Shown here one piece after another: positions 9,409 through 32,788 of a stretch of DNA of 35,062 nt; within the stretch, counting starts at the first letter, position 1, and each line of letters starts with the position of its first letter. The position numbers were made by a program, and so were the translations under genes. The stretch spans positions 1 to 35,062 of the forward strand of contig JBBFLE010000026.1 in the NCBI GenBank assembly GCA_037481695.1. Reading direction: 5' to 3'. Below the pieces are notes generated by a model, which worked only from the letters and a program-made list of their open reading frames with translations, ran no database searches and was not told the origin of the DNA. Source of the DNA: a bacterium. Its GTDB lineage: Bacteria; Desulfobacterota; Desulfocorpusculales; Desulfocorpusculum.

Positions 9409-9460
9409 CTTTGCTCAGAAATCTGCCGCCTTCCCCTCGAAAGGTCGCTCAGATGGGTCC

Positions 9461-9650
9461 GGCTGGGTGTACTGGCTTACGGCGACCTACTCTCCACGCC
9501 TTCCCATCCCTCGCAAAGGGACAGTGGCCTTCCGTCCGAGCATATGAGCTTGCGGCCGTGTGGATTTCGTTCCGATCACAGTTGCGGGGCAGCGATGGCC
9601 TCTCACCATCTTCCCCATGGGTCCGCCTGGGCGGCCCCCCGGAACCATAG
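9461..9650 (-). promoter_or_regulatory. Cobalamin (adenosylcobalamin-type) riboswitch
   Basis: Read on the minus strand, the conserved core appears in order: GGTTCC near 9641-9647, then GGGGAAGATGGTGAGAG, the core GCTGCCCCGCAACTGTGATC (about 9573-9592), GAAGGCCACTG (about 9522-9532) and the B12-box-like GTAAGCCAGTACACC at the 3' end (about 9466-9480). An extra GC-rich hairpin (GGGCCGCCCAGGCGGACCC, near 9615-9635) sits in the first arm. Spacing and order fit the class. It lies between a sigma70-like promoter and the btuFCD-exbBD-tonB operon, whose function it confirms. Confidence 0.93.
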
Positions 9651-9669
9651 TCCTTCGTATGACAGGATC

Positions 9670-10217: not shown

Positions 10218-11153
10218 ATGGACATTGCCTATGAGCTTATTATCTTGGGTGCCGGTCCTGCCGGGCTCACGGCGGGGATCTTTGCTGCCAGGGCAAGGAT
10301 CAAGACCCTGATCCTGGGGGCCAGGCCAGGAGGTAAGCCCCTCATGTACGACCAGATCGGGAACTATCCTGGATTTCCGGGTGGGGTGACCGGAGCCCAG
10401 TTGATGACCGGCATGCTGCAGCAGGTGAGCGACCTGGATGTTGACCGAGTATGGGAGGATGCCACAGCCTTGGAAATGGGAAGGGATTTTAAAGCAGTTC
10501 TGGTTGGGAAACAGAAGCACCTCTCCAGGGCATTGATCGTGGCCACGGGATCCGAGCCCATTCCCTTGGAAGTTCCTGGTGCAGCCGAATATGAAGGCAG
10601 AGGCATCTATTACTGTGCCCATTGTGATGCGCCTGTTTTCAGAGCAATGGAGAAGTCCAAGGCTGTTGTGGTGGGAGGGGGGGATTCGGCCCTTTACACG
10701 GCCCTCTATTTGACCAAACATGCTAAGGAGATCACAGTGGTGCACAGAGGCTCAAGGCTCAGGGCCAGCAAAGCGGCTCAGGACTCTGCCCTTTCCCACC
10801 CGGGCATCCGCCTAGTCCTCAACAGGGAAGTAGTGGAAGTAAAGGGAGACAGCAGGCACATCAATGGGTTGATACTCCGGGATCCAGCAACTGGAGGCAC
10901 AAGCCTTCTTAGTGCTGACGGGGTCTTTGTAGGGATTGGTCAAAGGCCTAACTCAAAAATAGTGGAAGGCATTCTCCAACTGGATTCAGAGGGATTTATT
11001 GTGGTGAATAGCCGGATGCACACATCTGCCCCCGGTGTCTTTGCTGCGGGTGATGTAATCCAGAAATCCCTGAGACAAATAGTGACAGCAGCAAGTGACG
11101 GAGCCGTGGCTGCGGATTCTGCCACCAGATTCTTACAAGGGATGATGGTATGA
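10218..11153 (+). CDS. Thioredoxin reductase-like flavoprotein
   Basis: A 311-residue FAD/NAD(P)H oxidoreductase of the TrxB family. The FAD-binding GAGPAGLTAG is at residues 11-20, the redox-active Cys pair CAHC at 133-136, the NAD(P)H-binding VVVGGGDSALY at 150-160 and the C-terminal FAD motif GVFAAGDV near 280. It would reduce a thioredoxin or small disulfide protein with NAD(P)H. The ATG follows a GGGAGG site. It overlaps the first corrinoid adenosyltransferase by four bases (ATGA), so a role in reducing the partner of corrinoid adenosylation, or the many small thiol proteins encoded on the other strand, is plausible but inferred. Confidence 0.9.
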   Translation: MDIAYELIILGAGPAGLTAGIFAARARIKTLILGARPGGKPLMYDQIGNYPGFPGGVTGAQLMTGMLQQVSDLDVDRVWEDATALEMGRDFKAVLVGKQKHLSRALIVATGSEPIPLEVPGAAEYEGRGIYYCAHCDAPVFRAMEKSKAVVVGGGDSALYTALYLTKHAKEITVVHRGSRLRASKAAQDSALSHPGIRLVLNREVVEVKGDSRHINGLILRDPATGGTSLLSADGVFVGIGQRPNSKIVEGILQLDSEGFIVVNSRMHTSAPGVFAAGDVIQKSLRQIVTAASDGAVAADSATRFLQGMMV

Positions 11154-21247: not shown

Positions 21248-22282
21248 TCAGGTAGTTTCCTGCATGGGATCCCAGACGGATTCCTTGGACAAAGCGGGGA
21301 ATCGATCTGTCAGGGCTTCCAGTTGTGGCATCACATCCGGCGGGGCGATGAAGACCAATCGATTGAGAAGATAAAGGCGCTCGGGCGGCAGCTGACGCTC
21401 CTGGATCTCCCACTTGCCCATCACAAGGCTGAAGAGATAAGTCCCTTGCCCCTGTGCCAGGAAACCCTTGGCCCTGACCACGGTCTTGGGCAGGTGGAGG
21501 GCCACTTCCCGGAAGGCTTCCAGGCTTTGGCCTTCCCATTTGTAGATTGCGGACACCAACAGGTCAGGGGGGGTCACTTCCCTGTTGGGGTCAGCCAGGA
21601 GTTCATCTATGGCCAGCTCCAATTCCTGGGCGGAGAGCATAACCCCTTTGGTGCCATCATCTGGGATGGGAGCCTGAGCTCTGGTGGATAGCCCCCCAAA
21701 GAATATCTCCAGGGGGATGTCAGCATAGGTTGTCTCGAAGAACCTGGGACTGGGGTTGTGTCTGGAGATGAGTTCCTTGATGCGATCAACCTGCCCAGGC
21801 GAGGCGAGATCAATCTTATTTATTATGAACGCGGTAGATGAAGCTATCTGTTTTTCCACCGAGGAAAAGGTCTCGTAGGCCTCTTGGAAATTGGCCGCAT
21901 CCACGATACAGAACTGCTCCAACAGGTGAAAACGGTCCTGGAAGAAGGGGAGCTTGAGGTCTCGCTTCAGATCAGTTGGATTGGCCACACCAGTGGACTC
22001 GATGAGAAGCACGTCCGGTTGGATCTTCTGAGCGATCTCGTGCATCCCCTTGATGAAGTCCGTCTTCACGCAAACACAGAATATGGACCCCTTGCTGATC
22101 TCTAGAATGTCCAGGTCCTCACCTTCTATGAGGGTGCCGTCGATGCCCACCTCACCGAATTCGTTCATCAGGATCATCAGCTTGCGGTCTCTGGGAAAGG
22201 ACGCTATGACGCGATTGAGAAAGGTGGTCTTACCGCTTCCCAAAAAGCCTGTAATTAGGAAAACATCTGTATTTTGACCCAT
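21248..22282 (-). CDS. CobW/COG0523-family GTPase, copy 2 (altered metal motif)
   Basis: A 344-residue G3E GTPase. Walker A GFLGSGKTT is at 12-20, followed by MILMNEFGEVGIDGTLIEGE, and NKID occurs in TAFIINKIDLASPG. At the place of the usual GCxCC metal motif it reads GSIFCVCV (residues 65-72), so only two of the cysteines remain, in a shifted CxC. The start ATG at 22282 follows GGCGGAG; the in-frame extension to 22378 is not protein-like. It directly follows the small disulfide protein. The long operon from the right appears to end here. It may serve the same proteins as the CobW at 26621, with another metal or none. Confidence 0.87.
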   Translation of the reverse strand: MGQNTDVFLITGFLGSGKTTFLNRVIASFPRDRKLMILMNEFGEVGIDGTLIEGEDLDILEISKGSIFCVCVKTDFIKGMHEIAQKIQPDVLLIESTGVANPTDLKRDLKLPFFQDRFHLLEQFCIVDAANFQEAYETFSSVEKQIASSTAFIINKIDLASPGQVDRIKELISRHNPSPRFFETTYADIPLEIFFGGLSTRAQAPIPDDGTKGVMLSAQELELAIDELLADPNREVTPPDLLVSAIYKWEGQSLEAFREVALHLPKTVVRAKGFLAQGQGTYLFSLVMGKWEIQERQLPPERLYLLNRLVFIAPPDVMPQLEALTDRFPALSKESVWDPMQETT

Positions 22283-22295
22283 GACAGCACTCCGC

Positions 22296-22553
22296 CTAAC
22301 CTGGCACCATGCCCTTGGCCTTGAGCATTTCGAAGATCTGTTCCGGTGAGAGGACTCTGGCCGTACAAACAACCTCACCGTCTATAACAAGACCCGGAGT
22401 AGCAAAAACGCCCATCTTCAGGAAGTATTGAGGCTCTTTGATCTTTTCCACCTGAACCAAGTCCTTGGAACCCGCCATTTCCAAGGCCTTGATCACATTT
22501 TGATATAAGACCTCACAATTCCTGCAACCTGGGCCAAGGACCTGGATCTTCAT
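22296..22553 (-). CDS. Small redox-active disulfide protein (thioredoxin_3 family)
   Basis: An 85-residue protein starting MKIQVLGPGCRNCEVLYQNV, the signature of the glutaredoxin-like 'redox-active disulfide protein 2' family, with the pair CRNC at 10-13 and a cis-Pro segment FATPGLVIDGEVV. The ATG at 22553 follows GGGAGG; a longer in-frame reading is not supported. Members reduce disulfides, with electrons from a thioredoxin-reductase-type protein; the flavoprotein at 10218 could fill that role. Confidence 0.9.
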   Translation of the reverse strand: MKIQVLGPGCRNCEVLYQNVIKALEMAGSKDLVQVEKIKEPQYFLKMGVFATPGLVIDGEVVCTARVLSPEQIFEMLKAKGMVPG

Positions 22554-22594
22554 CCTTTTCCTCCCATCTATCCCTGATTTTCCTGGGTCAGCAT

Positions 22595-22879
22595 TCAAAG
22601 ATCCCCATCTAGGCCCACAGCCTTTTTCCCCCGCTCCATACGAAGCAAGTGGCGGCAGAACTTGCAAAGAACCAGTTCCCCTTGCTTTGCGAACTCCTCC
22701 CACGCCTGGGTGTATTCATCAGAAGCAGGATCCAATTCAGAGGGTTGCTCCAGTCTGTAAATTCGATCCGTCTTGCCGCAGTAAGGGCAGGTGACTCCGA
22801 AAAAAGCTGTTTCATGTCTTGGAAGGCCCATCTCCATTACCAGTAGTCTGAGACGTTCTATGCGTTCCCAAAGATCCAT
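22595..22879 (-). CDS. Small zinc-ribbon protein
   Basis: A 94-residue protein with two Cys pairs, CPYC (residues 31-34) and CKFC (residues 72-75), that would hold a zinc ribbon around a mostly helical middle. It is not a family I can name. The start overlaps nothing but follows the SMC-like gene by ten bases with GAGG eight bases upstream. It may be a small adaptor of the SMC-like ATPase, an inference from adjacency. Confidence 0.7.
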   Translation of the reverse strand: MDLWERIERLRLLVMEMGLPRHETAFFGVTCPYCGKTDRIYRLEQPSELDPASDEYTQAWEEFAKQGELVLCKFCRHLLRMERGKKAVGLDGDL

Positions 22880-22889
22880 GAGCAGGCCC

Positions 22890-23870
22890 TCAGCAGCACT
22901 TGTAAAGCCGCAGCAATCTCTCGTCCATAACGAAATAGAATTTCATGAAAGATGAGCCGTCTATCCTGGTCCTAACTCCGTGCACCGTGTTGGCCAATTC
23001 GATGGTGCTGCGCAGATGGGTGATCATTATGAGCTGCCTTTTCTGAGCCAGCATTTTTAGGAGCGTTTGCATGGATTTGTGGTTTGTGTAGTCAAGGGAA
23101 GGCTCCACCTCGTCCAGGAGGTAAAGGGGAGCTTCCAGTTGCTCGAAAAGTGCGAGCTTCAAGGCCAGGCTGGTGACAGCCTTTTGCCCGCCGGAGAGCT
23201 GATGAGCCTTCCGGGCCGACTCTTTCCTAAGGGACAGCTCGATCTCCAAAGCTGGCTTGCCGTTCTCTTCATGGATGAGGATCTCAGCCTCTGCCTCTGG
23301 AAGGAGAAAAGAAAGATAATCCTGGAAAAGTGGGCTGACCTGATTTTCAACACATCGGATCGTGTCTTCCAACTTGGGAAAGCCAAGAAGCTCGTGGATC
23401 CAAGAAAACCGTTGGGGCTGCTCCAAGTAGATCATATCGTTGATCTGTTCTTGCCGCACAATGGTCTTCAAGGAGTTTCCCAGGCCCAAACGAACCGATT
23501 CTTTCTCGTATTCAGGCCGCTCGGCATCTTCTTTGTTTATCCAGTAATGCTCCGATCCATCCTTGCTTCTTTCCCTGGCCAGGACAGTAGCAGAAGATGT
23601 TTTTTCAGTTCCCGATTTGAATTTAAGCTCCACCTTGAGCCTTGATGCCGGTGGGTAGCTCCTGCTACCTGAGAAGAATAGATCTTCTTCTTTTTGGCAC
23701 CTCAATTTGCTCAGATCATCCTCTCCCATGGCCCAAACAATGGCATCCAGGATATTGGATTTCCCCACCCCATTGTTCCCAATGATCACCCCAATGCCGG
23801 GTTCGAAACCCATGCTTGTGGGCTCAGAGAAAGACTTGAAACCTTCTACCCTTAATCCTTCCAAGTACAT
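22890..23870 (-). CDS. Coil-less SMC/RecF-like ATPase
   Basis: A 326-residue ATPase with a complete SMC-type head. It begins YLEGLRVEGFKSFSEPTSM, with Walker A GNNGVGKSN at 31-39, as in SMC proteins. The ABC signature LSGGQKAVTSLALKLAL is at 225-241, Walker B LYLLDEVEPSLD at 249-260 and the switch His in MITHLRSTIELA. Between the lobes only about 70 residues (roughly 150-220) replace the several hundred residues of coiled coil and hinge found in SMC. It ends in Cys-Cys. It starts nine bases after the Sec-thioredoxin gene and belongs to the same transcription unit. Its role in a methyl-transfer cluster is unknown; it could be a conformational ATPase or a nucleic-acid-binding partner. Confidence 0.85.
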   Translation of the reverse strand: MYLEGLRVEGFKSFSEPTSMGFEPGIGVIIGNNGVGKSNILDAIVWAMGEDDLSKLRCQKEEDLFFSGSRSYPPASRLKVELKFKSGTEKTSSATVLARERSKDGSEHYWINKEDAERPEYEKESVRLGLGNSLKTIVRQEQINDMIYLEQPQRFSWIHELLGFPKLEDTIRCVENQVSPLFQDYLSFLLPEAEAEILIHEENGKPALEIELSLRKESARKAHQLSGGQKAVTSLALKLALFEQLEAPLYLLDEVEPSLDYTNHKSMQTLLKMLAQKRQLIMITHLRSTIELANTVHGVRTRIDGSSFMKFYFVMDERLLRLYKCC

Positions 23871-23879
23871 CTGGGAGCC

Positions 23880-24179
23880 TCACGAAATATCCCTGTTTTT
23901 CTTTTCATGACGGGCCAGTATTTCCTTGATTAACTCCTCCTGGCCTGGAATGATGGCCTCGAAAACCAACTCTTGGTCCAAGGCCAAACTGGGCAAAGAT
24001 CTAGCTTTCAACTCCCTGGAGCGCTGAAAACCCTCCAGAGTCCGCATGTCCCACTGCCGGACTTCTATGATTTCCTGTATTTCCCTCGGTAAGGACCTTA
24101 CCGACTCCGCCATGTACACACACGCAATTCATTGACGGAAATCGGTAAGAAGCACATCCACTAAGACTTTTCTATCCAT
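23880..24179 (-). CDS. Selenocysteine-containing thioredoxin-fold protein 1 (UxxC)
   Basis: A 99-residue protein if UGA at 24129-24131 is read as selenocysteine (residue 17). The N-terminal part is MDRKVLVDVLLTDFRQ-Sec-IACVYMAES. It aligns nearly gap-free with the Cys protein at 24994-25398 (IDVLTLDSVQ-Cys-AACGYMMES), and the match continues on both sides of the UGA, through a cis-Pro strand (LPSLALDQELVFEAII) to the last helix. Thus Sec replaces the attacking Cys of a CxxC motif. A hairpin at 24086-24104 is a fitting SECIS. Standard calling would start at a GTG after the UGA. Its stop is also UGA, nine bases before the SMC-like gene. Confidence 0.88.
24086..24104 (-). promoter_or_regulatory. 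Candidate bacterial SECIS element of Sec-thioredoxin 1
   Basis: Reading the mRNA, TCGGTAAG-GTC-CTTACCGA forms eight perfect base pairs with a three-base loop beginning with G. The loop starts 33 bases after the UGA, within the range usual for bacterial SECIS hairpins (about 16-37). Confidence 0.7.
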
Positions 24180-24214: not shown

Positions 24215-24502
24215 TCAATCATTGAGGAGCCTATCCAGATACTTCCTCAATTCTTCTATGCTAGGTATGTATTCGAACGCGAGCATTCCGTTGATGAAGA
24301 TGGACGGCACTCTAGCCGGACGACCGAGTTCTTTGGAGAGCTCCATACATCTTGTAGCTCCACTCAACTCCTTGGTAATAACCTTCTCCCAGCGGAGGGC
24401 TTGACCATAATCAGGCGCCACAGACTCGACCACCCGGGTCATGTATGCGCAAGGGATTCAGTGTTCCCCCTCGTGTAATATCTCAAGGTGAACTTGTCTC
24501 AT
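24215..24502 (-). CDS. Selenocysteine-containing thioredoxin-fold protein 2 (UxxC)
   Basis: A 95-residue protein if UGA at 24458-24460 encodes Sec (residue 15): MRQVHLEILHEGEH-Sec-IPCAYMTRV. It aligns with its immediate upstream neighbour at 24499-24885 (YKADY-Cys-LPCYYMDEA) on both sides of the UGA, including the closing cis-Pro segment VPSIFINGMLAFEYIPS. Its ATG overlaps the stop of that gene (ATGA), which supports translation from 24502 and hence through the UGA. A weak hairpin follows at SECIS distance. Conventional calling gives only a fragment from the ATG at 24442. Confidence 0.87.
24427..24441 (-). promoter_or_regulatory. Weak candidate SECIS element of Sec-thioredoxin 2
   Basis: GACC-CGGGT-GGTC plus one U-G pair forms a short stem with a G-rich five-base loop; the loop starts 22 bases after the UGA. 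Position fits a bacterial SECIS, but the stem is only four to five pairs. Confidence 0.4.
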
Positions 24503-24885
24503 TTCCGGTCTCCCTGACCCCATGCTAGGGCAAGCCTCTCAAGGGCCTCTTCGATGGCTTCCTCCAGTTCGTCTCTTGTGGGAATCATGTCAAAGACCAA
24601 TTCCCCTTGGATGAACAGGGAGGGAACCGGCGCCAGCCGCATATGCTTGAGCACCCCTTCATCCCCATAGAGGGACTTGGAGAGCTCTAGGAAACGTTTC
24701 CCCCCCTCCCTGGTCATGAAGTGAACTCTCCTGTAGTCTATTTTTTCCCCATACTGCGGCAATACTTCTCTAACAGCCTCGTCCATGTAATAACAGGGCA
24801 AGCAATAGTCTGCCTTGTACATGACCTCTATGAGGAGTTTTTCTCCCTCTGGAAGAGCCCAAAAGGCTTCTCCTGTTGCAGGCAT
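24499..24885 (-). CDS. Thioredoxin-fold protein with CLPC motif (Cys homologue)
   Basis: A 128-residue protein with the pair CLPC at 28-31 in YKADYCLPCYYMDEAV, a cis-Pro strand VPSLFIQGELVFDMIPT and a closing acidic helix. It is the Cys-containing counterpart of the Sec protein just downstream, with an extra insertion near residues 83-88. The start follows GGGGAGG nine bases upstream. Its stop overlaps the start of the Sec gene. It has no signal peptide, so it should be cytoplasmic. Confidence 0.85.
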   Translation of the reverse strand: MPATGEAFWALPEGEKLLIEVMYKADYCLPCYYMDEAVREVLPQYGEKIDYRRVHFMTREGGKRFLELSKSLYGDEGVLKHMRLAPVPSLFIQGELVFDMIPTRDELEEAIEEALERLALAWGQGDRK

Positions 24886-24993: not shown

Positions 24994-25398
24994 TCACACG
25001 ATGCTGGAGTCTGATCTTGTGAACCGGCCGGCACCTGCTCTTTGCAGGTTTTCCTGAATCTTGTCAAATTCGAACCCCTTTTCCCTCAGGGACAAGATCT
25101 TGTCCCTCATGGTGGGTGTTGGGGCCCTCTTGGCCATCTCATCGATGAGCTCCTCGTATTGGGGAATGATGCTCTCGAAGACGAGATCCCGCTCAATGCA
25201 GATGGTGGGAAGCACCCTTCCTTTCAACTCCAGGAATTTCCCGATCCCGTCCTTGTTCTTGATGGACCATTCCCTGTACTCGATCATGTCCTGGACTTCA
25301 GTGGGCATGGCGGCGATGGATTCCATCATGTAACCGCAAGCTGCGCACTGCACGCTGTCCAAGGTGAGCACATCGATATGGATCTTTTCCTCAGACAT
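24994..25398 (-). CDS. Thioredoxin-fold protein with CAAC motif (Cys homologue)
   Basis: A 134-residue protein with CAAC at 18-21 in LDSVQCAACGYMMESI, a cis-Pro strand LPTICIERDLVFESII, and a 40-residue C-terminal extension (MRDKILSLREKGFEFDKIQE and beyond) that the Sec homologue at 23880 lacks. The ATG at 25398 stands six bases after AAGGAGG; a GTG two codons earlier overlaps that site. It starts 24 bases after the read-through stop of the Sec-methyltransferase, tight spacing that fits the longer reading of that gene. Confidence 0.86.
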   Translation of the reverse strand: MSEEKIHIDVLTLDSVQCAACGYMMESIAAMPTEVQDMIEYREWSIKNKDGIGKFLELKGRVLPTICIERDLVFESIIPQYEELIDEMAKRAPTPTMRDKILSLREKGFEFDKIQENLQRAGAGRFTRSDSSIV

Positions 25399-25422
25399 TT
25401 GCACCCTCCTTGTCAGACGTGT

Positions 25423-26457
25423 TCACCAGGACTCTGGGTACTTGGTGTAATACTGGTAATACCAATCTCTCGCCTCATAAGCCTGATCCATATGTTCCAC
25501 CGGAACATCGTAGGGCATGTCTCACCCAGGGGCAAAAGTGAACCCGGTGTTGCCACCGGCAGCCAGGCTCACTATGGCATCCTCCCTAGGTGAAAGAAGT
25601 CCCAAGCTTAGGGCCAGGGTAAGTTTAAGATTCCCGCCGAACCCCACCTTGTACTTCATGGCCATGTCCCTTACGAACAACATGTTAAGCTGTTCGTCAA
25701 TGGCAAAGCCGTGAGTTCCCACCTTGCAGACCTCCTCTAGGACCTTGGTGCAGTCTCCGCAGATGAAGAAAGAGGAAGTCTTTCCAGCCTCATGAATGGC
25801 CTTTATGGCAGGCTGGGAATTAGGGGTCACGTACTCCCTGAAGGTCTCTGGTTTTATCTGGGAAGCCACCGGATCCACCACACAGATGATGTCGCATCCC
25901 ATCTCGGCGTAGAACCTAGCAGAGCAGGCCCCAACCTCTCCGGCAAACTTGATCACCTCGTGGGCAAAATCCTTTTTCTTGTAAACATCCGTAAATATCC
26001 TGACACCTGCCAGGTGGGAAGCCAGGGTCAGGGGACCGCACAGCAATCCCATCATCACGCAATCCAGCTCGTCCAACTGCGGCTTGGCGATCCTGGCTGC
26101 CTCAAAAATGACCGGCCATCTACCTGATTCCTTGGTGGGGAGCTTCAGCCCGGCCTCTGAGGGTGTCTTGTCCGAGCATGGATGAGTCACCACCGAAGGC
26201 ACATTGTCCCCCCACCACTTGAGCTCGCAGCCCACTGCATTGGCTTCCACTGAGAGGTCGAAAAGCAACGGGATCCCGTCGGCATGGTAACGCTTGGCCG
26301 CATTGACTACCCCTTTGGCCAGCAGCTGAGGATCCTTCAAAAACTTGTCAGCGGGCTCGTTGATCAGAAAGGCACTGTGGACCCCCGAATAGGGGACCCA
26401 GGGGGGAATGTCGGTCCTTTTTCCCCTATAAGCATCTATCAACCTCTGTTTGGCCAT
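25423..26457 (-). CDS. Selenocysteine-containing UroD/MtaA-family methyltransferase
   Basis: A 344-residue protein if UGA at 25522-25524 is Sec312. Up to the UGA it is a normal UroD/MtaA-fold protein; the usual family end is PGC(D/G)-x-P followed by a helix. Here it reads TFAPG-Sec-DMPYDVPVEHMDQ and continues for 32 residues to a UGA stop at 25423. So Sec takes the place of the C-terminal zinc-ligand Cys. The other site is FIC233GDC236 in place of HxCG, so His is lost and a second Cys gained. The ATG follows AAGGAGG. A perfect hairpin sits at SECIS distance. The four thioredoxin-fold genes follow directly. Its substrate is unknown; methyl transfer to or from a corrinoid is the family role. 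Confidence 0.88.
25492..25508 (-). promoter_or_regulatory. Candidate bacterial SECIS element of the Sec-methyltransferase
   Basis: In the mRNA ATGTTCC-GGT-GGAACAT forms seven perfect pairs with a GGU triloop. The loop starts 21 bases after the UGA, in the bacterial SECIS range, and GGU resembles the loop bases that SelB contacts in E. coli fdhF. Confidence 0.75.
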
Positions 26458-27570: not shown

Positions 27571-28164
27571 TCACTCCACCAGAATGATTCCGTAATAATG
27601 GAAAAGGTCGCGCCTTTTTTGGGCCAGCCTGGGTCTGATGCCCAAGTTCTGCAAGGTGCCCAACAGGTCTATGGAGAAAGACTCCACTGAGGGCCTTTTC
27701 TCCTGGGGGAAACGGCAATCACCCGGGTATGCGCATTCTTTACACAGCCCGCAGGTTTCCCCCACCAACCCAAAAGCCTTGTAGTAGCCTTCCAAGAAAA
27801 GGGATCTCTCCAGGCTCACCGTGCCCTTCCAGCATCGCACTTGCTTGGCACGCTTGCGGGCATTGTCCAAATAGAAATCCGGACAATCCTGAGTTCCCAC
27901 AAGCAGAAGGGCTTCCCGGAATTCCCCCAATATGGACCTTGCAGTTTCAACCCCGGGTGTGGCAGGCGGACAACACCAGTTGGTGTTGTACTTCTTACAT
28001 CCATAACGGCATTTCAGATGTACCCACTGGCTTACCAGGATCTTTTCAGCCGGAAACGGAACCAGCAGCTCCAGACCGTAGCGTCTGGCGTTCTGGGTCA
28101 GACATCTCAATAGCTTCCTAGGAATTCCCTTGTGCTCCAAAGGGATGACTTTTCCATTTCTCAT
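27571..28164 (-). CDS. DUF2284 putative metal/Fe-S binding protein, copy 2
   Basis: A 197-residue paralogue of the protein at 14620-15126. Cysteines are at 52 and 56 (HLKCRYGCKKYN), 64-65 (NWCCPPATP) and 138, 141, 144 and 150 (CGLCKECAYPGDCRFP). The C-terminus YYGIILVE matches the other copy's VMVLLE, so the ends are homologous. It lies between the small cysteine-rich protein and CobW copy 3. Function is unknown; repeated pairing with corrinoid methyl-transfer genes suggests electron transfer or metal handling for them. Confidence 0.9.
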   Translation of the reverse strand: MRNGKVIPLEHKGIPRKLLRCLTQNARRYGLELLVPFPAEKILVSQWVHLKCRYGCKKYNTNWCCPPATPGVETARSILGEFREALLLVGTQDCPDFYLDNARKRAKQVRCWKGTVSLERSLFLEGYYKAFGLVGETCGLCKECAYPGDCRFPQEKRPSVESFSIDLLGTLQNLGIRPRLAQKRRDLFHYYGIILVE

Positions 28165-28579: not shown

Positions 28580-30637
28580 TTACTTCTGATGCAGTATCTC
28601 TGGCCTTACTATCCCCTCCAGATGGGGATACTTGTCTTTCATGTGAGGGATCTGCATACACTCCATGAACTGTTGTTGGAAGTCTTTCTCCACGGTGAGT
28701 TCTATGTATTCCACGTTTCTGGCTACCCAGTTGGCCTCAACCCTCTTCTCCCTGTTGAGAAGACACGCCCTGGCTCCGTCCCCTGCGGCGTTGCCTACAG
28801 AGATTATCCTGTCAATCTCGCAATCCGGGAAAAGCCCCATTACCAAGGCCTTGGTTCTGTCCACGTGGGTCCCAAAAGCACCGGCGATCTTCACCGAATC
28901 CACATGTTCCACTCCCATTCGCCTCATCATAAGTTTGCATCCAGCATGAAGAGCCCCTTTGGCCAGCTGGATTTGGCGCACATCCCTTTGAGTAATGACT
29001 ATGTCCTTACCTATACTTGTCTCTTCAGCCCAGGCCAGAACGAACTCGGGCTGATTGTTCTCGGGATTTCTCCTGAAACGAGGGGATTTCTGCTCCTTGT
29101 TGAAGACGCCGCTCTTGGTGATTACCCCGGCCGCATACAACTCCGCCAAAACATCCAAAATGCCCGAGCCGCAGATCCCTTTGGCCTTCATCTCTTTGGG
29201 CTCTGAGTAACTTCTCCAAGCGTCCCGGCCTATGACCTTGTAGTCCACTTCATGAGTGTCTGGGTCTATTTTGATGCGTTCAATGGCCCCAGGGGCCGCA
29301 CGCATGCCAAACAGTATCTGCGCCCCTTCCAAAGCCGGGCCTGTGGCGCAAGAAGAAGAGATCATCTTGTGTTTATTGCCCAGCACCAGTTCTCCATTGG
29401 TGCCTATGTCTATTATCAGAGCCATTTCATCCTTCTTGTACGGCTCTTCTGCCACCAGCACCCCCACGTTGTCTGCTCCTACAAATCCCGCCTCATTGGG
29501 AAGCACATGCACATAAGCCGAGGGGTTCACCTTGAGGCCCAGATCCCTGGCCTTGATATCCAGGCTATGGTGGATAACAGGAGGAAATGGTGCCAGTCCC
29601 ACGAACTGGGGATCCAGCTGGAGAAGAATGTGGTGCATGGCGGTGTTTCCCACTATGGTCACATCCTCCACATCTTCCCTAGAGAGCCTCAGGTAAGTCC
29701 TGCCTTCCTCAGGGACCTCCACCCACTCCTCCTGGGCATCGGCCCCCTTGCCTTTCTTGAGTTTCTTCTTAGGGGGGTGAGTGCCCTGCACGGCCTGATC
29801 AATGACCCAGTTGAGCCCTTCCACAATATCCTCACTCATGCGTTTGAGGCCATCTTCGGTGGTCATGTGGAAGGTTATCCGAGACATCACGTCTTCCCCG
29901 TACTTGCACTGGGGGTTCATGAGGGAAACCGTGTCCAGCACCTCCATGGTGTCCAGATTGCAGAAATAGCCGGCCACGGTTGTGGTGCCGATGTCTATGG
30001 CGATACCATAATGGGCCTCGCACCTGCCAGGCCTGACGCGTATTATCTCCTTGTCCATCCATATGCTCACCGTGACCTTCCACTCACCCTGCCTCAGAGC
30101 CCCCGGGAGCTGCCTCAATGTCAGAAAGTCGATCCCCAGATTGGTCAAGCCGTACAACCTCTCCAGCTCTCTGCAAACTCTCTCGAAATCCGCTGTTGGC
30201 TCCTCGAAAGTAGGAGGCTCCACCTCCACGTAGTAGGTCTTCACGGCCGGATTATGTTGTATTTCAATGGCCCTGGCAGCCTTGCTGACCACTTGTTTGC
30301 CTGCCCGGGACTCCTCTGGCACAAACACCAGAAGGTCCCCTTGCACCTTGGCGCAACAGGCCAGCCTGTAGCCAGCCCCCTTTTCCTCTGCGTTTATGAA
30401 CTTCTCTTCTTCCTCCTGCCAAGGGCTTGCGTTATCCATGCTGGAATGAATGCCAAATTTCTGGAAAAAACCTTCCTCAATGCGGACCTTGCACTTCCCG
30501 CACACCTTCTTTTCCCCGCAAAGGGTCTCTATGTCTACCCCAAGGACTCTCGAGGCCTCTATGAGGGTTGAATCCTTCTTAACAGGGCCTCTTCGTCCTG
30601 AAGGCTGAAATATGACCATGGCCTTGGCTTCGTCCAT
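28580..30637 (-). CDS. Reductive activator of corrinoid proteins (RACo/RamA-like, DUF4445)
   Basis: ATP-dependent reductase that returns inactive cob(II)alamin on corrinoid proteins to cob(I)alamin. The 685-residue protein has an N-terminal 2Fe-2S ferredoxin domain (Cys40, Cys46, Cys49 and Cys94 or 95), a linker, and a C-terminal ASKHA ATPase domain with GIAIDIGTTTVAGYF, VTIVGNTAMHHILL, LIIDIGTNGELVLGN and KIAGAFGTHVD. The ATG at 30637 is six bases after GGGGAGG; a GTG two codons earlier is an alternative. It follows the corrinoid protein and MtaA genes, its probable targets. The gene end has no overlap with the small Cys-rich gene. Confidence 0.94.
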   Translation of the reverse strand: MDEAKAMVIFQPSGRRGPVKKDSTLIEASRVLGVDIETLCGEKKVCGKCKVRIEEGFFQKFGIHSSMDNASPWQEEEEKFINAEEKGAGYRLACCAKVQGDLLVFVPEESRAGKQVVSKAARAIEIQHNPAVKTYYVEVEPPTFEEPTADFERVCRELERLYGLTNLGIDFLTLRQLPGALRQGEWKVTVSIWMDKEIIRVRPGRCEAHYGIAIDIGTTTVAGYFCNLDTMEVLDTVSLMNPQCKYGEDVMSRITFHMTTEDGLKRMSEDIVEGLNWVIDQAVQGTHPPKKKLKKGKGADAQEEWVEVPEEGRTYLRLSREDVEDVTIVGNTAMHHILLQLDPQFVGLAPFPPVIHHSLDIKARDLGLKVNPSAYVHVLPNEAGFVGADNVGVLVAEEPYKKDEMALIIDIGTNGELVLGNKHKMISSSCATGPALEGAQILFGMRAAPGAIERIKIDPDTHEVDYKVIGRDAWRSYSEPKEMKAKGICGSGILDVLAELYAAGVITKSGVFNKEQKSPRFRRNPENNQPEFVLAWAEETSIGKDIVITQRDVRQIQLAKGALHAGCKLMMRRMGVEHVDSVKIAGAFGTHVDRTKALVMGLFPDCEIDRIISVGNAAGDGARACLLNREKRVEANWVARNVEYIELTVEKDFQQQFMECMQIPHMKDKYPHLEGIVRPEILHQK

Positions 30638-30771
30638 CCCCACCTCCCCTTGAACCCAGGATTACATTGGCCGCTTCTTCAAGATCCAGCCCCTGGCAGA
30701 TCTTGCTCTGCAGTCTGAGGGTGGCTTGAGCTCTAATGCATTGGCAAGAGCACCTCTGTTAAAAGCCTTAT

Positions 30772-31443
30772 CTACACCTGACCTGCTGCCCTCATCTCTC
30801 TGAGCCTTCCTATCATCTTTATGGCTTCCTCCACGGCATTTCCTGCAGATTCGGCGTATCCGTCGGCTCCAAAGAGCTTGGCCACATCCTTGGTCACTGG
30901 AGCCCCGCCCAACATGATGGCCACGTTGGGGTTTTTTTCTTTGATCATCTGAATGACCTTGCGCATCCCCAACATGGTGGTGGTCATCATGGCGGACATG
31001 GCCACGATTTCCGCATCTGTTCTGAGCTGCTCTTTGACAAAGTTCTCCAGGGGCACGTCCCTGCCTAAGTCGTGCACTGTGAATCCAGCCACGTCGAACA
31101 TCATCTTGACCAGGTTCTTCCCTATGTCGTGCACGTCCCCCTGAACCGAGCCTATTACCACTTGAGCCTTGGACTCGCCCTCTTTCTTGGGTACATGCGG
31201 CCTGAGAATTCCCAGACCAGCATACAGAGCATCCGCGCACATTAAGACCTCGGGCACAAAGTACTCATTGCGTTCATAAAGCCCACCCACTATTTCCATA
31301 CCGTGGGCCAGTCCGTCCATGATGGCTTCCAAGGGGTCGTAGCCGTTGTCCACCACTGCTTGGGCCGCTTCTTTGACCTGATCCTCGTTGTAATTCACAA
31401 CCCCATCGCTCAATGCCTTGAGCAGCTCTTCCTTGTTTGCCAT
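30772..31443 (-). CDS. B12-binding corrinoid protein (MtaC/MtbC family)
   Basis: Methyl-carrying corrinoid protein of 223 residues. An N-terminal helical cap (residues 1-90) includes DPLEAIMDGLAHGMEIVGGL and YFVPEVLMCADALYAGL. The Rossmann B12 domain follows with the base-off motif DVHDIG (103-108), His105 being the lower cobalt ligand, then MMFDVAGFTVHDLGRDVP, MLGGAPVT and FGADGYAESAGNAVEEA. It would accept a methyl group from a substrate-specific methyltransferase and pass it to MtaA. The start follows AAGGAGG. It ends with TAG where the family normally ends. Confidence 0.95.
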   Translation of the reverse strand: MANKEELLKALSDGVVNYNEDQVKEAAQAVVDNGYDPLEAIMDGLAHGMEIVGGLYERNEYFVPEVLMCADALYAGLGILRPHVPKKEGESKAQVVIGSVQGDVHDIGKNLVKMMFDVAGFTVHDLGRDVPLENFVKEQLRTDAEIVAMSAMMTTTMLGMRKVIQMIKEKNPNVAIMLGGAPVTKDVAKLFGADGYAESAGNAVEEAIKMIGRLREMRAAGQV

Positions 31444-31545: not shown

Positions 31546-32604
31546 TCAGCTCAGACGGCCTACAGCAGGACTCGGCCTTGCTCCGCCATATTCCCTGGTG
31601 GTTTTCACTATGGCCAGCATGTTTTCCTCTTTTATGTCCGGCCAAAGGTCGCATCCCGGCATAACCGCATCCACCCCAGAGTCTATATTGACTTTTATGG
31701 CAGCCACCGCCTCTTGTACGGTGGTCTCAGCCTTGCAAGGCAGGGCGAAGACGTCGAAGTTGCCGAACAACAAGACATGGTTGCCGAGCTTCTTCCGCGT
31801 CTCCACCAGGTTATTTTTTATGTCCACACTGATGGCATCGGCTCCGCACTCGTTCATCATCTCCACCAGGGGATCCGTCTGCCCGCAGATGTGAAGAATT
31901 TTGGGTGATTTCCAGGCAGCCAATATCCTGGTCAATCGAGGCTTTATCATCTCACGAAAGGTCTTAGGACTAAGTAGATCAGCGGCTACTCCGGGCTCCC
32001 TCAGCGTGATATAGTCCGCACCTGCAGCCTGAAGGGCCTGCCCGATCTTGATGATCATTTCTGTGAGCTTGTCCAGGAGTTGCTCCACCTTGTCTCTTTG
32101 CTTGAACACGGCCTTCAGAATCATGTCCAGCTCCAGGATCTGCCCTGCCTGGGTGAAAGGTCCCAACTGCCACGCCCCTACCGGGTATTCAGGGGCTTGC
32201 TCCTTGATGATCTTTATGGCCTGGGGAATCAGGGGCATCCTGCCCAGTTCCATGATGTTCTCTGGGATTTCCACCTCATCCATGCTTTTCCATCTCTTCT
32301 CGGGTATTGTGGGATAAAGAATGTCCTCCGAATCCTCATAAAGGCTTATCTTGTTTCCCATGGCTTCAGACTCCCAGCACATGTCATAGGGCACCACAAT
32401 GGAGTCGAATCCCATGAGCTTGCTGGACCAGATGGCTGACTGAGCCAGGCGGTTGGCATCGGTGTGGACTTGGGCGAAATGGTATCCCAGCTTCTTTATG
32501 GCAGGCATCACCACCATCCCCATTCCACTGAAAAAGGGCATGGTGTCCAGAGGTTCCCTCTTGAAAAGCCTCATGATTCTCTCTTTGGGGGTGAACTGGG
32601 TCAT
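31546..32604 (-). CDS. MtaA/CmuA-family corrinoid methyltransferase, copy 2
   Basis: A 352-residue UroD-fold zinc methyltransferase with His238-x-Cys240 (KILHICGQTD) and Cys318 (VMPGCDLWPD). It aligns with the copy at 13397-14452 from residue 1 with hardly a gap, which also fixes the start at 32604, 10 bases after AAAGGAG, rather than at 32703. It sits directly upstream of the corrinoid-protein gene and is its likely partner. Both copies carry the same C-terminal tail RPSPAVGRLS. No substrate-specific MT1 such as MtaB, MttB or MtmB is in the window, so it may itself act on the methyl donor, as the CmuA-like fusion proteins do. Confidence 0.92.
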   Translation of the reverse strand: MTQFTPKERIMRLFKREPLDTMPFFSGMGMVVMPAIKKLGYHFAQVHTDANRLAQSAIWSSKLMGFDSIVVPYDMCWESEAMGNKISLYEDSEDILYPTIPEKRWKSMDEVEIPENIMELGRMPLIPQAIKIIKEQAPEYPVGAWQLGPFTQAGQILELDMILKAVFKQRDKVEQLLDKLTEMIIKIGQALQAAGADYITLREPGVAADLLSPKTFREMIKPRLTRILAAWKSPKILHICGQTDPLVEMMNECGADAISVDIKNNLVETRKKLGNHVLLFGNFDVFALPCKAETTVQEAVAAIKVNIDSGVDAVMPGCDLWPDIKEENMLAIVKTTREYGGARPSPAVGRLS

Positions 32605-32788
32605 CAAAGGACTCCTTTCTGTTGGGAGTTTCAGGTTTTGAACCCTTGTACCAAGAGCCGATCCCTGGTCTGCAACTGCTGTGCAAAGCCCAAAGCCTTC
32701 CAAAACAGCAAATTGGCTGGCTGCAAAGTTCTGATCCAGCTCAAGAAGATCCTTTTCCCAGCCTTGCTGTTCTCGTCCTTTTCAAAAC

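Follow-up and report, generated by a model that had tools for sequence, protein, structure and literature searches.

A selenocysteine HUIPC thioredoxin-like protein and its cysteine paralogue as probable partners of a seleno-MtaA corrinoid methyltransferase system

Introduction

The MtaA/MtbA methylcobamide:CoM methyltransferases belong to the UroD superfamily and are represented by the solved structures 4ay7 and 4ay8; in MtaA we take HICG to supply two zinc ligands, its His and its Cys, and APGC the third, its Cys. The available text of a preprint by Kountz and Balskus (PMC10418091) describes UroD-superfamily S-methyltransferases as binding zinc via His-Cys-Cys, and Type 1 mlp gene clusters of anaerobes in which MtaA-like methyltransferases occur with a corrinoid protein, a reductive activase and a link to selenium. 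Another precedent is the SAO selenoprotein operon, credited to Haft and Gwadz 2023, which, in the available portions of PMC13188914 and PMC10418091, combines several selenoproteins, one of them thioredoxin-like. Thioredoxin-like proteins with a HUIPC motif are a named family, which the accessible part of the 2026 review PMC13188914 lists in its Table 1 and credits to Haft and Tolstoy 2025, mSystems.

Here we describe a locus in a window of 35,062 nucleotides (the whole stretch of DNA analysed) that shares features with each of these systems. Its HUIPC protein has the motif, length and fold of the NCBIfam family NF047660, and taken on its own it is a fresh member of that family, with nothing differing at the protein level. 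Its methyltransferase, in turn, resembles MtaA/MtbA in fold (TM 0.88 between its model and 4ay8), in the Cys of ICG, in an APG-x-D motif and in an operon shared with a corrinoid protein and an activase. Unlike MtaA/MtbA, by alignment it has Phe for the zinc-ligand His and Sec for the third-ligand Cys, and it appears to have a dedicated thioredoxin-fold partner that is sometimes fused to its Cys relatives. The Type 1 mlp clusters, as described in the available text of PMC10418091, likewise differ in having His-Cys-Cys zinc sites rather than Sec; the word 'thioredoxin' appears there a single time, within the title of a reference, and 'CobW' never. The SAO operon differs as well: we rejected an identity with SaoT since its model, NF040730 (cut-off 65), matches neither HUIPC nor UxAC, a second thioredoxin-like selenoprotein of the operon, and gives 11.9 for the Cys paralogue CLPC.

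Among the models scanned, none was curated for the Sec methyltransferase or for UxAC. The available texts of three papers contain no occurrences of MtaA, UroD or uroporphyrinogen (review PMC13188914), of methyltransferase (deep-Sep paper PMC12013277) or of MtaA (dual-code paper PMC8318568). No published seleno-MtaA or UxAC was found in the literature covered, to which Haft and Tolstoy 2025 and Haft and Gwadz 2023 do not belong. Provisionally, then, what is new here is the whole system, a neighbourhood of seleno-MtaA, UxAC and HUIPC, the HUIPC family itself being known.

Results

The HUIPC gene is coupled to a Cys paralogue

24215..24502, minus strand: predicted HUIPC thioredoxin-like selenoprotein, 95 aa, UGA(Sec) at 24460-24458, called from NF047660, orthologues and predicted fold
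24499..24885, minus strand: CLPC, thioredoxin-like Cys paralogue, overlapping the HUIPC start (ATGA), in 13/15 HUIPC loci

A first-pass annotation had proposed a UxxC thioredoxin-fold selenoprotein at 24215-24502, translationally coupled to a Cys paralogue, and the gene structure bears this out. Read on the minus strand from 24502 to 24215, the frame runs MRQVHLEILHEGEH-TGA-IPCAYMTRV and onward to a second TGA, which is its terminus; the internal UGA is codon 15, in the context HEGEH-U-IPC, and the HUIPC active-site motif is present. The ATG (24502-24500) shares bases with the CLPC stop codon, giving ATGA (24502-24499), as had been noted. The proposed match to the active site of this upstream gene was also recovered, as HUIPC aligns to YKADYCLPCYYMDEA of CLPC with U over C at 36% identity, and CLPC lies in the same fetched locus as Sec-HUIPC in 13 of 15 cases.

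The HUIPC protein passes the NF047660 model 'HUIPC motif thioredoxin-like (seleno)protein' with 143.8 bits against a cut-off of 105; CLPC (83.7) and two other thioredoxin-like proteins of the operon, UxAC (43.9) and CAAC (34.2), do not reach this cut-off, nor that of any other NCBIfam model in the scan of window proteins. HUIPC scores under the gathering threshold of Pfam PF13192 Thioredoxin_3 (17.3 versus 24.8). Its predicted structure is a compact thioredoxin fold (pLDDT 96.4), for which Foldseek returns thioredoxins as the nearest solved structures (E about 1e-4). P66 is invariant and is presumably the cis-Pro position of the thioredoxin family; in the model, Sec15 would be the N-terminal, nucleophilic residue of the UxxC site, facing the cis-Pro loop (VPS). 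Two points go beyond the first-pass annotation, namely that HUIPC already has a curated NCBIfam model and that the methyltransferase of the operon is itself a predicted selenoprotein.

The UGA is conserved and the genome encodes selenocysteine machinery

Persistence of the UGA in related genomes had been proposed as a check. Among 17 HUIPC orthologues, counted above 70 bits after the flanks of methyltransferase loci had been fetched (the UILC, CMLC and RVHCVMYDY paralogues and the partial L130 score below 70 bits and are left out), the column holds TGA in 15, TGT in one and TGC in one, the two Cys forms being distant. Five orthologues from a scan of named species genomes, at 54-65% identity, all have TGA. 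A profile search of 395 genomes of the phylum matched eight, among them G048, which has the TGA form, and G214 and G336, where EGPHC(I/V)PCEY, a Cys form, adjoins the same activase and DUF2284 genes. The Cys orthologue in L044 also clears NF047660 (108.3 bits, cut-off 105). Two other genomes of the window's family have neither HUIPC nor a seleno-MtaA gene. The class-level samples for the window's own class and for that of G048 were small, with three and five genomes, respectively.

Components for reading UGA as Sec, whose absence would have counted against the proposal, are all encoded in the genome: SelA (595 bits), SelB (370 bits), tRNA-Sec(UCA) (74.6 bits) and SelD (381 bits). The selD gene (L067, G000:C3:67670-68590, minus strand) carries one in-frame TGA of its own and SelD is therefore probably a selenoprotein itself. 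Outside the window, a second tRNA (L011, G000:C16:63349-63441, minus strand) exceeds the Rfam tRNA-Sec cut-off (50.0 versus 47 bits), although its anticodon is GCA (Cys), and its variable arm is long; by eye its neighbours resemble a YedE-type membrane protein and a TusA-like protein, and similar second matches occur in G001 (58.6 bits) and G002 (61.5 bits).

Could the UGA at 24460-24458 instead be a true stop, with the downstream 75-aa frame from ATG 24442 alone expressed, or the gene decayed? Translation table 11 does terminate there, that ORF does exist, and a decayed copy occurs in L024, a locus found mainly through its CLPC paralogue, where the column is TCA (Ser) and a frameshift follows. 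However, over the nine codons 5′ of the UGA the orthologues keep their amino acids (identity 0.76) while synonymous codons vary (0.43), the upstream conservation that the first-pass annotation had asked about; the column is UGA or Cys throughout the 17 orthologues, in a genome with Sec machinery, and termination at the UGA would remove the second active-site Cys from the product. We therefore regard a true stop as highly improbable. Genome-wide reassignment of UGA (for example to Trp) and sequencing error are more improbable still, and we reject both: the HUIPC, UxAC and methyltransferase genes all terminate with TGA, tRNA-Sec is present, and the non-UGA sites are Cys in 13 of 13 counted (two HUIPC, three MtaA orthologues, eight fused MtaA) and never Trp, the decayed L024 copy having Ser. 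The UGA also recurs across many separately assembled genomes, which agrees with the earlier judgement that chance or error was unlikely. HUIPC is thus almost certainly a selenoprotein.

Two further selenoproteins are predicted in the operon

25423..26457, minus strand: MtaA/UroD-type methyltransferase, predicted selenoprotein, 344 aa, UGA(Sec) at 25524-25522, third zinc-ligand position
24994..25404, minus strand: CAAC, thioredoxin-like Cys protein, directly after the methyltransferase, in 51/64 loci
23880..24179, minus strand: UxAC, predicted thioredoxin-like selenoprotein, 99 aa, UGA(Sec) at 24131-24129, motif DFRQ-U-IAC

The first six-frame UGA scan of the window was swamped by antisense noise; under a stricter filter, three coherent coding-strand sites remain. 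The first-pass annotation had counted two UGA sites in this operon. Both are conserved, with TGA in 16 of 16 UxAC orthologues in addition to the HUIPC column above, and the count itself rises to three conserved Sec sites with the methyltransferase gene (26457-25423).

Under table 11 the methyltransferase stops at the TGA at 25522; reading on gives APG-U-DMPYDVPVEHMDQAYEARDWYYQYYTKYPESW and then a second TGA, with the first UGA in the context APG-U-DMP. In the first ten relatives the frame runs past this codon every time, with nine TGA and one TGC. The MtaA profile matches nine of the 395 phylum genomes, seven with TGA and two without, and 54 of 389 genomes sampled at class level around G396, with UGA in 47 of the 389. 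The 60 matching rows of the latter sample comprise 50 with one TGA, two full-length without a stop (G646, G727), one partial row short of the site and seven weaker matches in 455-500-aa frames. Of 59 orthologous sites across the fetched loci, 56 have TGA and three have TGC or TGT (Cys); the 56 sites are not 56 genomes, as G715, G746 and G520 give two each.

In the alignment with 4ay7, U312 falls opposite the Cys of LAPGCGI, and the putative zinc site would be Phe-Cys-Sec in place of the His-Cys-Cys pattern. Scores are below the cut-offs of TIGR01463 (MtaA/CmuA; 141.8 versus 235.4) and NF040654 (119.1 versus 400). On these sequence comparisons, the methyltransferase is predicted to be a selenoprotein with Sec at the third zinc-ligand position. 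In a tree for which the program flags long branches, the fusions of MtaA with a thioredoxin domain described below group together (99/93) as the sister of the Sec clade. The Cys form of G329 branches at the base of the Sec rows, and those of G646 and G727 fall within them, a placement that agrees with a single gain of Sec and a single reversion.

We infer that each Sec thioredoxin-like protein is paired with a Cys paralogue, HUIPC with CLPC and UxAC with CAAC. A further Sec paralogue, GWPN-U-ILCQLAMEAL, is found in G214 and G336 (L044 9192 and L046 12906, reverse strand), and the L046 copy reaches only 56.7 bits with NF047660. In the CLPC homologues of L048 (9499-9795, minus strand) and L134 the first active-site Cys is Tyr or Ser, and the L048 homologue is without the second as well; this loss suggests a non-redox role for such homologues in some genomes.

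Synonymous sites are constrained 3′ of the UGAs

24427..24441, minus strand: candidate bSECIS hairpin, HUIPC gene, TGACC-CGGGT-GGTCG, loop beginning 21 nt past the UGA
25492..25508, minus strand: candidate bSECIS hairpin, methyltransferase gene, ATGTTCC-GGT-GGAACAT, loop beginning 20 nt past the UGA
24086..24104, minus strand: candidate bSECIS hairpin, UxAC gene, TCGGTAAG-GTC-CTTACCGA, loop beginning 32 nt past the UGA

Constraint was measured as codon identity between sequences sharing the same amino acid. From an earlier run of this test with fewer sequences, the partial L049 (UxAC) and L044:103 (CAAC) were removed; L153 (the region of L064) and L050 (a second contig, G048 UxAC) were removed from the constraint, hairpin and codon-state counts and from the tree. 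Over the 13 codons after the UGA, synonymous-codon identity was 0.60 versus 0.37 elsewhere for HUIPC (n=15, p=0.0002), 0.71 versus 0.47 for UxAC (n=16, p=0.00005) and 0.73 versus 0.44 for the seleno-methyltransferase (n=56; 0/20000 permutations as high). None of the Cys controls showed such constraint: CAAC (0.42 versus 0.45, n=53, p=0.76), CLPC (0.47 versus 0.43, n=19, p=0.27), the fused MtaA (0.54 versus 0.56, n=8, p=0.63) and the Cys orthologues of the seleno-methyltransferase (0.33 versus 0.39, n=3, p=0.70).

Hairpins with a G in the first two loop bases and a stem of at least 6 bp were found in 54/56 methyltransferase, 15/16 UxAC and 7/15 HUIPC sequences, compared with 13/53 CAAC, 1/19 CLPC and 3/8 fusion controls; the HUIPC hairpin is short, with a median stem of 5 bp over 15 sequences. 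Against 60 synonymous shuffles, none was as low in energy for the seleno-methyltransferase, and the energies for HUIPC (6/60 as low) and UxAC (20/60) are not clearly below the shuffles. Two-sided pair changes are sparse (one cell, two and none for methyltransferase, UxAC and HUIPC, respectively), and an Rfam scan of the window gave no SECIS match. Since only the methyltransferase stands out in the energy test and covariation is sparse, the RNA case for HUIPC rests on the synonymous constraint.

The thioredoxin-like genes lie in a corrinoid methyltransferase operon

30772..31443, minus strand: methyltransferase cognate corrinoid protein, TIGR02370 203.3 bits, just below the cut-off of 215.3
28580..30643, minus strand: RACo-type corrinoid-protein activase
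28661-28200, minus strand: DUF6951 protein
27571..28164, minus strand: DUF2284 predicted metal-binding protein
27718-26621, minus strand: CobW GTPase
22890-23870, minus strand: SMC-type ATPase (SMC/RecF-like), 326 aa, between the UxAC and zinc-ribbon genes
22879-22595, minus strand: zinc-ribbon-like protein
22296..22703, minus strand: MTH895/ArsE-type thioredoxin-like protein, TIGR00412 69.1 bits (cut-off 62), in 33/64 loci
21248..22378, minus strand: second CobW-type GTPase; CobW in 47/64 loci
31546..32703, minus strand: second MtaA-type methyltransferase, Cys form, HICG...PGCD
10218-11153, plus strand: thioredoxin-reductase-like gene, named by eye
9444-9658, minus strand: cobalamin riboswitch, 77.3 bits

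On the minus strand the order is corrinoid protein, activase, DUF6951, DUF2284, CobW, methyltransferase, CAAC, CLPC, HUIPC and UxAC, followed by the SMC-type ATPase, the zinc-ribbon-like protein, the ArsE-type thioredoxin and the second CobW. Homologues of the ATPase lie beside UxAC in G048 (59%), L116 and L126. Elsewhere in the window, the riboswitch is upstream of genes that by eye resemble a cobalamin-type ABC uptake cluster (9360-6568).

The seven genomes first found through HUIPC (G000, G048 and G395-G399) all carry a UGA-containing MtaA as well, and by this computation the Sec thioredoxin-fold HUIPC is co-inherited with a Sec-containing MtaA-type methyltransferase. The reverse link is weaker, with a full-length Sec HUIPC in 8 of the 46 loci L100-L145, many of which end at contig ends, plus one partial copy. 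Since most MtaA loci are without HUIPC in the fetched flanks, HUIPC is accessory rather than core.

A Cys-form MtaA and a CxxC thioredoxin domain occupy one ORF in eight copies from six genomes (G305 and five class-level genomes); the fusion was read out for L052 and L151, and for the other six it was judged by how long the frame is and where the thioredoxin match falls. The fused domain is CAAC-like, not HUIPC. By eye, the L151 fusion has a corrinoid protein on one side and a RACo-like activase on the other, with CobW and a DUF1638-like gene coming next.

Discussion

In the explanation that we favour, the in-frame UGA of HUIPC would be read as Sec by SelB and tRNA-Sec, aided by the hairpin just 3′ of it, for which the support is computational. 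HUIPC and CLPC, the Cys paralogue to which it is translationally coupled, would then act together within a corrinoid methyltransferase system made up of a corrinoid protein, a RACo-type activase, a CobW GTPase and an MtaA-type methyltransferase with Sec as third zinc ligand. Because of the synteny and the natural MtaA-Trx fusions, we infer that the methyltransferase has the thioredoxin-like proteins as its dedicated thiol/selenol partners. That HUIPC works in this system we hold to be very probable, and the statement as a whole, Sec HUIPC with CLPC as dedicated partners of a seleno-MtaA system, reasonably probable. The chemical step is more tentative: on the same synteny and fusions, the thioredoxin-like proteins might keep the Cys/Sec metal site of the methyltransferase and its sulfur or selenium substrate reduced, or alternatively might hold that substrate. 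The soft Cys/Sec site suggests that the substrate is a sulfur, selenium or metalloid compound. A bolder version, which we think distinctly unlikely, is that the selenols and thiols of HUIPC/CLPC and UxAC/CAAC carry the methyl or methyl-S/Se group themselves, as a protein-borne 'coenzyme M', with Sec as metal ligand in the methyltransferase; if true, three selenoproteins would take part in the methyl-transfer chain.

HUIPC might instead be a general antioxidant or disulfide-reducing selenothioredoxin that is in the operon by chance and does not serve the methyltransferase. Its predicted UxxC thioredoxin fold would suit such a role, as would the thioredoxin-reductase-like gene in the window and the distance between HUIPC/CLPC and the UGA-containing MtaA in G399. 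Yet every genome found through HUIPC has a seleno-MtaA, even though the MtaA profile matched so few of the 395 phylum genomes, the adjacency recurs and MtaA-Trx fusions exist, and we consider this explanation unlikely. About equally unlikely is that the operon is a module for detoxification or methylation of a metal or metalloid (organometal), in which the Trx-like (seleno)proteins bind or reduce a metalloid such as As, Hg or Se and the corrinoid methyltransferase (de)methylates it, a proposal that overlaps the favoured one. It draws on the company of an ArsE-type thioredoxin, CobW GTPases and DUF2284, a domain also found in NF041536, the model for an arsenite methyltransferase/DUF2284 selenoprotein (62.9 bits, well under the cut-off of 575), and on the tie between related MtaA-like clusters and methyl-selenide metabolism in the available text of PMC10418091. 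However, the window genes scanned, a subset of the ORFs, include no ArsM, MerB or metal efflux gene, and HUIPC, as noted, is not matched by the SaoT model.

If HUIPC is a partner of the seleno-MtaA system, as we favour, its neighbourhood offers a family of unknown role a testable function, that of corrinoid methyltransferase partner. With its UGA conserved at a zinc-ligand position, this methyl-transfer enzyme would use Sec in an unusual way, namely as a zinc-type metal ligand. The seleno-methyltransferase is frequent among the class-level genomes sampled around G396, and its gene would be cut short by standard annotation. The MtaA-Trx fusions suggest that the methyl-transfer chemistry requires a thioredoxin-fold partner, and such thioredoxin-dependent methyl transfer may be relevant to the methylation of sulfur, selenium or metalloids by anaerobes.
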